In this document: positions 41,413-43,616 of the stretch, one piece after another
Layout: each line of letters opens with the position of its first letter
Numbering within the stretch: position 1 is the stretch's first letter
DNA from: Pseudodesulfovibrio sp. JC047
Lineage (GTDB): Bacteria; Desulfobacterota; Desulfovibrionia; Desulfovibrionales; Desulfovibrionaceae
Length of the DNA stretch: 64,000 bases
Direction: 5' to 3'
Assembly (NCBI RefSeq): GCF_010468615.1
Contig: NZ_WUEH01000020.1
Span: forward strand, 1 to 64,000
The notes under the pieces: generated by a model
Told to the model about the DNA's origin: nothing
What the model saw: only the letters and a program-made list of their open reading frames with translations
The model's database searches: none
Translations under genes and position numbers: made by a program

Positions 41413-41625
41413 TTATTCGGGCGTCTGTGTTGATTTCGGCTTGCTGATAATCTTGTGAACCCATCGAGAGTCCGAAACTCGGTCGGAAACAATGTATCCA
41501 CACTCTCGTAGGTAGCGCATTTTCGCTCCGCCATCACCGATGGAATACACGCGTTGCCCGACCGTATGTTGTTTCAAAAAGGTCAAGGCTGCTTTTTTGT
41601 AGTTTCTTGAGAACAGGTTAAACAT
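41413..41625 (-). CDS. Small uncharacterised protein, about 70 residues
   Basis: AAAGGAG is followed by two ATG codons in tandem; the second (41625) has the better spacing. The product reads MFNLFSRNYKKAALTFLKQ..., with VYSIGDGGAKMRYLRECGYIV and SRWVHKII, and is predicted to be a small soluble alpha/beta protein. It has its own terminator. No family is recognised. Confidence 0.65.
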   Translation of the reverse strand: MFNLFSRNYKKAALTFLKQHTVGQRVYSIGDGGAKMRYLRECGYIVSDRVSDSRWVHKIISKPKSTQTPE

Positions 41626-41764
41626 CATTTCTCCTTTGGAGTTGAGGAGCATCCCTTTATCACCAACTTTTTGATTGGTCTATTGCTCACAGGGGGGTGT
41701 GGTGGTGATTTCTTGAGAAGCTCAACGATATCAAACGGCTCATTCTTGACTTTCTTTAATGATG

Positions 41765-41864
41765 GGCCTAGACCGTCGTCAGGGGATGAGGTCCCCTCGA
41801 ACCGCTTGAAGCGATGAAGACTTCTGCCGTGAAAATCATGGTGGAGGTGCGTCTACATATTGCA
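41765..41864 (+). ncRNA. Candidate riboswitch leader of nhaB
   Basis: The leader can form a closed multi-branch RNA. TAGAC (41769-41773) pairs with GTCTA (41851-41855) and encloses three hairpins: AGGGGA/TCCCCT (41781-41797), CGCT/AGCG (41803-41813) and CCGTG/CATGG (41827-41841). The stem can grow by GGCC at 41765-41768 pairing with GGCC at 41865-41868, the first bases of the terminator stem, which would block termination. This architecture before a cation antiporter gene suggests a cation-responsive riboswitch, such as the lithium (nhaA-I) or sodium (DUF1646) classes. The class match is inference only; a plain small RNA with a terminator is also possible. Confidence 0.4.
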
Positions 41865-41891
41865 GGCCGCATCCACGGATGCGGCCTTTTT
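41865..41891 (+). terminator. Intrinsic terminator upstream of nhaB
   Basis: GGCCGCATCC pairs with GGATGCGGCC around a two-base loop and is followed by TTTTTG. It lies 103 bases before the nhaB start with no complete gene before it on this strand. Confidence 0.9.
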
Positions 41892-41993
41892 GTTGAGTGT
41901 CGATCCAAGAAGCGGTGAAGGTTGCCCTGTGTGACAGCTTTTCCCTTTGTTTCGGGTCAGTGATGATAATCTACAGCGCCAATGGAGAATGAA

Positions 41994-43616
41994 ATGGCTC
42001 AACCTTTAGCACGGACTTTTGTCAATATGTTCCTCGGCAATGCCCCGGTGTGGTATAAGCTTACCATCCTTGCATGTCTTGTCTGCAACCCGATTATCAT
42101 GATTACCGTCGGGCCTTTTGTGGCGGGCTGGTTGCTGATTGCAGAATTCATTTTTACCCTGACGATGGCTTTGAAGTGTTATCCGCTTCCGGCTGGTGGG
42201 CTTTTGGCTATCGAAGCCGTTGCCATGGGGCTGACTTCAGCAGACGTCGTGTACCATGAAGCCCTCAATAATTTCGAGGTGATTCTGCTGTTGATCTTCA
42301 TGGTTGCCGGTATTCATTTCATGAAGGATTTCCTGCAATTCACGTTTACTCGAATCCTGGTTCGGGTTCGGTCGAAAAAACTGATTGCATTGTTGTTCTG
42401 TCTGGCCGGAGCCTTCCTTTCTGCTTTCCTCGACGCCCTGACGGTGACGGCTGTCATTATTGCCGTGGCCTATGGATTTTATAATGTCTACCACCGTTTT
42501 GCTTCGGGCAAAGGCAGTGGCGATTCTCACAATCTGATTTCGGATGAGTTTGTCAAGCAGAAGGACCGCGAAGAGCTGTTGGCATTCCGGGCCTTTCTTC
42601 GCAATCTGATGATGCACGGTGCCGTGGGTACAGCGCTTGGCGGTGTCTGTACTCTCGTCGGTGAGCCGCAGAATCTCTTGATTGCCCATGAGATGGGATG
42701 GCATTTCATTCCCTTCATCGTCAAGGTGCTGCCGGTGTCCATGCCGGTTCTTGCCGTGGGACTGCTGACCTGTCTTGCCGTGGAACAGTTTAAAGTGTTT
42801 GGCTACGGAGCCGAGCTTCCTGGAAATATTCGTTCGTTTTTGTTGGAAACAGCCATTCGTATGGAAAAGGAACAGGGACAGCGTGGCAAGGTCAAATTAT
42901 GTATCCAGGCCCTGATCGGGGTGTGGCTTATTTTGGCTCTCGCCATGCATCTTGCTGCGGTCGGTCTGGTCGGCCTGTCCGTTATTATTCTGTTGACGTC
43001 CATGACTGGCGTTGTGGAAGAAAGCCAGCTTGGACATGCCTTTGAGGAGGCACTGCCTTTTACCGCACTGCTCGTTGTCTTCTTCTCTATTGTTGGTGTC
43101 ATTCATTCCCAGAATCTGTTTGCGCCCATTATTGGGTATGTCTTGAGCATGAAAGGACAGATGCAGTTGGTGGCCTATTATGCGGCTAACGGTCTTTTGT
43201 CCTCCATCTCCGATAACGTGTTTGTGGCGACGGTGTACATCTCGGAGACCAAGCTGCATTTCATCGGTCTGCTTGACGCCCTGCCGGGTATCGGCATGAG
43301 CGGTCAGGCTCTCATGGCCAAATTGACCGATTCCAGTCTGGTTCGGGCCGACGTCATTGCCAGCCTGCCTGCCACGGTCGCTCCTCAGGTTCAAGAGATG
43401 ATGGCTCATTTTGACAAGTTGGCGGTTGCCATCAATACCGGAACAAACATTCCGTCCGTGGCGACTCCCAATGGACAGGCCGCATTCCTGTTCCTGTTGA
43501 CAAGCGCGCTTGCGCCGGTCATCCGTTTGTCATACGGCCGTATGGTCATCCTTGCGTTGCCATACACCATCACCATGTCCCTGACTGGTTTGGCTGCCGT
43601 GTATTATCTGTTGTAA
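41994..43616 (+). CDS. nhaB: NhaB-type sodium/proton antiporter
   Basis: Exports sodium in exchange for protons at the inner membrane. The 540-residue protein has about 12 membrane segments and the marks of Nha[31 protein letters not shown], the discontinuous helix region [16 protein letters not shown] and [20 protein letters not shown] six bases before the ATG at 41994 decides this start over 41982. A structured leader with terminator precedes it and a beta-helix protein gene follows after 50 bases, so the pair is likely an operon under leader control. In a marine-type bacterium it would serve sodium homeostasis. Confidence 0.92.

Follow-up and report, generated by a model that had tools for sequence, protein, structure and literature searches.

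Fluoride riboswitches of the crcB motif (Rfam family RF01734) have a P1 stem, a P3 stem, a GAACC junction and a pseudoknot formed between the P1 loop and a 3' strand, and the positions in this study are numbered by their linchpin pair, A40-U48 (excerpts of PMC8752731 and PMC11077080). In the excerpted text of PMC11077080, the base of the terminator shares nucleotides with the pseudoknot in the B. cereus crcB switch, and antitermination in the U41A mutant of this switch stays at 16% irrespective of fluoride, whereas in the wild type it is 28% without and 75% with fluoride. According to the available portion of PMC11139923, Na+/H+ antiporters are second in frequency only to exporters among the genes behind fluoride riboswitches, and this frequency is linked to the acid load that accompanies fluoride uptake; a link between this riboswitch and antiporter genes is thus already known. 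The nhaA-I and nhaA-II Li+ riboswitches and the Na+ riboswitch (RF03071) are likewise found before Na+/H+ antiporter genes. The latter is presumably the former DUF1646 motif. As stated in the accessible part of PMC9646797, the nhaA-I and nhaA-II motifs never precede nhaB genes.

The leader described here lies in a stretch of 64,000 nucleotides from Pseudodesulfovibrio sp. JC047 (contig NZ_WUEH01000020.1, positions 1 to 64,000; hereafter the window), upstream of a gene that the initial annotation had taken for a Na+/H+ antiporter gene. This assignment is confirmed, since the product matches PF06450 at 706.7 bits and is NhaB; NF007093 is matched above its cut-off and TIGR00774 below its cut-off. 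The listed open reading frame opens at 41982, and no ATG is present at this place in the leaders of three relatives of the same genus (G024, G035, and G034). A GGAG (41984-41987, located by eye) lies upstream of the ATG at 41994, which is judged the likelier start codon. The same genome carries a second NhaB gene, the product of which is 75% identical (G000:C11:138343-139962), and a CrcB gene on another contig, for which no recognizable fluoride riboswitch was found in the RF01734 genome search (150 of 488 candidates scored). On the minus strand, a 71-aa open frame (41413-41628) diverges from nhaB, with conservation of the region upstream of its start in four relatives.

At curated cut-offs, Rfam gives nothing at the leader, and a tRNA elsewhere is its sole match in the window. 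With permissive settings, a cmscan of 601 bases against 4227 families gives 11 matches at E <=10, only one of which falls below E 0.1; this is RF01734 at 41773-41833, with 24.5 bits and E 1.4e-4, below the gathering score of 34 bits. In the whole genome (3.57 Mb; 150 of 488 candidates scored), the leader is the best RF01734 match (E 2.0e-4), followed by one of 18.1 bits, with no place over the cut-off and no other place of at least 20 bits. Because all 14 control genomes also show some RF01734 match at E <=10, a score below the cut-off settles little by itself, and these same two facts are what a chance resemblance beside an ordinary terminator would have in its favor.

The orthologous leaders are more informative. 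NhaB is matched at E <=0.001 in 39 of 98 related genomes, some of these matches being weak, and the nearest proteins, all from the same genus, are those of G024 and G035 (93% identical) and of G025 and G034 (91%). Among 297 genomes from the class, RF01734 exceeds its cut-off at 54 places in 44 genomes, and three of these places immediately precede nhaB orthologues, in G024, G035, and G034. G024 and G035 differ at 1.4% of four-fold sites and are nearly identical, so these three leaders represent two independent intact sequences. The five leaders can be aligned from a promoter-like block through the start codon, and the linkage of leader and nhaB that had been proposed for the window is found in five genomes. 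The RF01734 scores are 54.6 bits for G034, 51.5 bits for both G024 and G035, and 24.5 bits for the window; the G025 leader gives no match up to E 1. A covariance model, R1, made from 30 of the 54 class hits, including the three intact nhaB leaders but neither the window nor G025, scores G034 at 70.5 bits, G024 and G035 at 68.1 bits, the window at 29.6 bits (E 1.7e-8 in 23 kb) and G025 at 24.9 bits. The E value with this clade model and the alignment of the whole leader with three intact aptamers reduce the probability of a chance resemblance to a negligible level. The leader is almost certainly homologous to the fluoride riboswitch: the intact orthologous aptamers, together with the alignment of the leaders and the trees described below, indicate that it descends from an intact fluoride aptamer. 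The new riboswitch class that had been considered for this leader was consequently rejected.

R1 was also run across 36 genomes of the genus. Besides the five leaders, it recovered at E <=0.01 one more intact copy in G034 and two weak matches, of 21 bits in G005 (G005:C16:18323-18388) and of 19 bits in G006 (G006:C1:1440228-1440285), which could be further decayed copies or chance matches. The second G034 copy (G034:C1:3022758-3022819, minus strand) is an intact fluoride riboswitch before a CrcB gene, and no copy of this kind was found in the genome of the window by the RF01734 search (150 of 488 candidates scored). Over 30 NhaB loci, R1 found besides the five leaders only a match of 17.8 bits in G020, past the 3' end of nhaB (L019, 930-992, minus strand), which the whole-genome search at E <=0.01 did not return, a match of 6.2 bits past the end of nhaB at L014, and two partial matches. 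Second NhaB genes outside these loci were covered by the whole-genome R1 search. Five of the 54 class hits precede NhaB, namely three in this clade (L055, L063, and L064) and two in another genus, g7 (L041 and L095), and a CrcB match is found near 23 of the 54 in the flanking stretches examined. The two g7 aptamers are intact, and L095, as judged by eye, shares the arrangement of an aptamer followed by a pairing hairpin and a separate terminator, but not the sequence.

The features of the leader and its gene, in window coordinates, are as follows.

41746-41774, forward strand: putative promoter, TTGACT (41746-41751), 17 nt, TAGACC (41769-41774); hexamers and spacing by eye.
41781-41825, forward strand: fluoride-type aptamer with an altered core, from RF01734, R1 and alignment with G024, G035, and G034.
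41781-41797, forward strand: P1, AGGGG/CCCCU with a 7-nt loop, or a register with an 8-nt loop; from the alignment and pairing counts.
41788-41824, forward strand: pseudoknot of GAGGUC (41788-41793) with GACUUC (41819-41824), in the 8-nt-loop register.
41803-41813, forward strand: P3 in a shifted register, CGCU (41803-41806)/AGCG (41810-41813), from the computed fold.
41814, forward strand: position 37, A instead of C, by comparison with 54 class hits.
41818, forward strand: position 41, A instead of U, equal to the published U41A change.
41820-41848, forward strand: hairpin H1, 41820-41832 with 41836-41848, 13 pairs; from the computed fold and orthologue pairing.
41841-41876, forward strand: possible antiterminator, 41841-41845 plus 41848-41851 with 41868-41876; proposed by eye.
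41864-41891, forward strand: intrinsic terminator, 10 pairs and a U tract.
41994-43616, forward strand: nhaB, Na+/H+ antiporter, from Pfam and NCBIfam profile matches and the start codons of relatives.

The initial annotation had described a structured leader at 41690-41891 with a perfect terminator before nhaB, and both hold: the fold has an energy of -81.8 kcal/mol (z -4.1), none of 200 shuffles is as good, and the terminator consists of a 10-pair stem and a U tract. The upstream helices were not confirmed. Counted as pairs of the computed window fold that are kept in the four orthologous leaders, which is not a measure of covariation, 4 to 5 of 7 are kept in the closing helix, 3 to 8 of 12 in the hairpin at 41703-41735, 7 to 9 of 12 in the hairpin at 41737-41768, and 8 of 11 in the helix that uses 41769-41779. 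The GGCC (41765-41768, located by eye), which had been proposed to pair with the terminator 5' arm, sits inside the promoter-like block. This block (41746-41774) shows 3 to 5 differences over 29 columns between the window and G024, G034, or G025, in comparison with 50 to 55% of differing four-fold sites in nhaB. The RNA most likely starts near 41780, a position that we infer from the conservation of the block because scanning 41560-42010 for consensus promoters revealed no sigma-70 site. The two hairpins are upstream of or inside the block and are thus probably absent from the RNA. Downstream of the terminator, GATAATCTACAGCG (41965-41978) is identical in all five leaders, while the stretch around it (41892-41981) differs by 32 to 36% between the window and G024, G034, or G025. 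It is possibly a second promoter or another site; no good -35 element was seen, and the consensus scan found no promoter there.

A Na+ or Li+ riboswitch, the class suggested by the initial annotation, agrees with the function of the downstream gene, and with that only. It is scarcely credible given the homology to fluoride aptamers, the poorly kept upstream helices and the lack of an RF03057 or RF03071 match at the leader. In the genome of the window at E <=1, the nhaA-I model (RF03057, Li+), the search for which had been recommended, gives one match of 16.8 bits on another contig, and RF03071 gives three matches, all below the cut-off; none of them is at nhaB, and neither nhaA-I, nhaA-II nor the Na+ class was listed at the leader by the cmscan of all 4227 families. 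Identity with RF03057 or RF03071 was accordingly rejected. What stands of the earlier proposal is that nhaB is linked to a riboswitch-type leader RNA that includes a terminator, and what falls is its assignment to a cation class or a new class. One RF03071 match of 26.8 bits (cut-off 40.5) at G000:C22:21454-21536 (L120, 1955-2037, minus strand) has no clear downstream gene on that strand among open reading frames of at least 120 aa and is probably due to chance.

In comparison with RF01734, the window leader shares P1, the pseudoknot, the GAACC junction, A40 and U48, the terminator and the antiporter target, while it differs in A41 and A37, a shifted P3, a shorter P1 with its loop, and a score below the cut-off. 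P1 and its loop are one base shorter than in the orthologues. In the register with an 8-nt loop, P1 is formed by GGGG (41782-41785) and CCCU (41794-41797) with one G-U pair, and all four inner P1 pairs and all six pseudoknot pairs can still form in the window; the pseudoknot covaries in the 30 class hits. The one-base deletion therefore appears mild, and the missing base was dropped as a candidate lesion because P1 and the pseudoknot form with the usual 8-nt loop. The usual P3 register (G24-C37, C25-G36) is broken, with two pairs that are nonstandard with respect to R1, and the stem of the window is displaced by one register. At position 37, the 54 class hits have C in 51 and U in 2, and one row (L090) was misanchored by the script; by eye, this row has C37 and U41. 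U occupies position 41 in 53 of the hits and C in the remaining one, and A never occurs there. The linchpin bases A40 (41817) and U48 (41825) are retained, whereas the U41 beside them is replaced by A, exactly the substitution of the B. cereus U41A mutant (excerpts of PMC11077080), the difference being that the latter is a laboratory mutant and the window leader a natural sequence. Judged from these bases, the core is altered at sites that are needed for the fluoride response, although a sequencing error in the single assembly may lie behind the changes.

The G025 leader is damaged in a different manner. By eye, its GAUG is changed to GAAG, its GAACC is altered, and a base is lost from the 3' strand of the pseudoknot; it also lacks junction A residues, and the pseudoknot pairing is lost. 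It has in common with the window a C at position 35 and no C37.

The region from 41780 to 41892 folds better than all shuffles (z -5.2), and its expression platform is largely retained in the orthologues. Hairpin H1 uses the 3' strand of the pseudoknot (41820-41825 in the window), and the sequence by itself implies competition between the aptamer and H1. Leaving out gap cells, 94.1% of the H1 cells are paired across 4 distinct orthologues, and the computed energies are -16.5 kcal/mol for the window, -12.2 kcal/mol for G034 and -8.9 kcal/mol for G025. In the same 4 orthologues, every cell of the terminator is paired, and two-sided changes are seen in 2 of its 10 pairs. The five leaders show weak covariation: for P1, H1 and the terminator combined, 19 of 500 shuffles reach the covariation score, 73 the count of two-sided changes, and 400 the count of further pair types. 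The putative antiterminator region alone has an energy of -13.3 kcal/mol, as compared with -14.4 kcal/mol for the 21-nt core of the terminator. When the aptamer is blocked, the computed minimum retains the terminator in all four leaders examined, including the intact ones, so these energies do not decide the switch mechanism. The layout differs from that of the B. cereus crcB switch, in which, by the excerpted description (PMC11077080), pseudoknot and terminator base overlap; in the window, the overlap is with a separate H1, which is followed by the terminator.

The retention of the fold, H1 and the terminator, together with core bases that are changed in two of the five orthologues, would also fit a remodeled core that senses another ligand, such as a different ion, while control of the Na+/H+ antiporter is kept. 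We regard such a change of ligand as highly unlikely, given that the two changed orthologues do not resemble each other, G025 having lost its pseudoknot pairing and junction A, and that no second sequence of the window type was found in 36 genomes of the genus.

The order of events was examined in trees. In the nhaB plus rpoB tree, which comprises 8 genomes, the window is the first branch, followed by G025 and then by G034 and the G024/G035 pair. The group without the window has support of 99.9/99 in this tree, 97.7/93 with rpoB alone, likewise from 8 genomes, 89.4/86 with nhaB DNA and 83/60 with NhaB protein. With the window outermost, G025 next and an intact ancestor, two independent losses of sensing in the clade would be the simplest account. 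A single first step shared by the window and G025 is possible as well, given that both have C35 and lack C37. The aptamers of the window and G024 differ in 13% of 46 columns, by 5 substitutions and one gap, as compared with 49.6% of four-fold sites, which suggests that selection acted on the aptamer through most of this divergence and that the changes in the core were late or few.

This low overall divergence bears on the reading in which the leader is a diverged but still functional fluoride riboswitch, where compensating changes would allow fluoride to turn nhaB on as before. The six pseudoknot pairs and four inner P1 pairs that can be formed, the retained H1 and terminator, and the new P3 register, which amounts to a 4-pair stem, would all be expected of such an element. 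An A at position 41, on the other hand, occurs in none of the 54 class hits and makes the B. cereus switch blind to fluoride (excerpts of PMC11077080), and the score of 24.5 bits contrasts with 51.5 to 54.6 bits in the orthologues; taken together, these observations make a working fluoride riboswitch rather unlikely. Our preferred reading, which we hold to be probable, is that the leader derives from a fluoride riboswitch and that its sensor decayed in the lineage of the window.

In the intact relatives, fluoride, as a Mg-fluoride complex, would stabilize the pseudoknotted aptamer, and the stabilized aptamer would withhold the 3' strand of the pseudoknot from H1. The H1 strand thus released could capture the terminator 5' arm by base pairing, which would allow read-through into nhaB; without fluoride, H1 and subsequently the terminator would form, and transcription would stop. 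In the window, A41, A37 and the shifted P3 would mean that fluoride no longer locks the aptamer, which would leave the bound state unlocked and termination as the default, as in B. cereus U41A. By analogy with that mutant, the RNA of which comes from a different species, loss of the fluoride response is likely. We infer from the sequence of the window RNA this loss, the antiterminator and the level of nhaB expression, which would be independent of fluoride and most likely low, because H1 and the terminator are predicted to form by default. The default state may also be ON. As given in the excerpts of PMC11077080, a B. cereus switch with a C-G top pair shows read-through of 75% without and 94% with fluoride, and C-G is found at the corresponding pair in G024, G035, and the window (in the 8-nt-loop register), while G034 has U-G. 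C-G occurs there in 9 of 29 distinct class hits and is hence not rare, so that either a low or a high default is possible for the window. Fluoride independence is the firmer prediction of the two. Some fluoride response may remain in the window, as P1 and the pseudoknot can still be formed, and a decayed sensor does not account for the retention of H1 and the terminator.

In our literature search, no report of a decayed fluoride riboswitch was found, which does not prove that none exists. The loss of a sensor with the terminator kept is a neat case but no surprise in principle. The case also illustrates that a match below the Rfam threshold can hide a known class and pass as a new one. If the preferred reading is correct, the window leader would be a natural counterpart of a laboratory loss-of-sensing mutant, in a clade in which three of five genomes have an intact aptamer before nhaB and the other two seem to have lost it through different changes, with the terminator kept. 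Such a clade would allow one to ask how riboswitches die, what becomes of the gene that they controlled, and whether the leftover expression platform is taken over.
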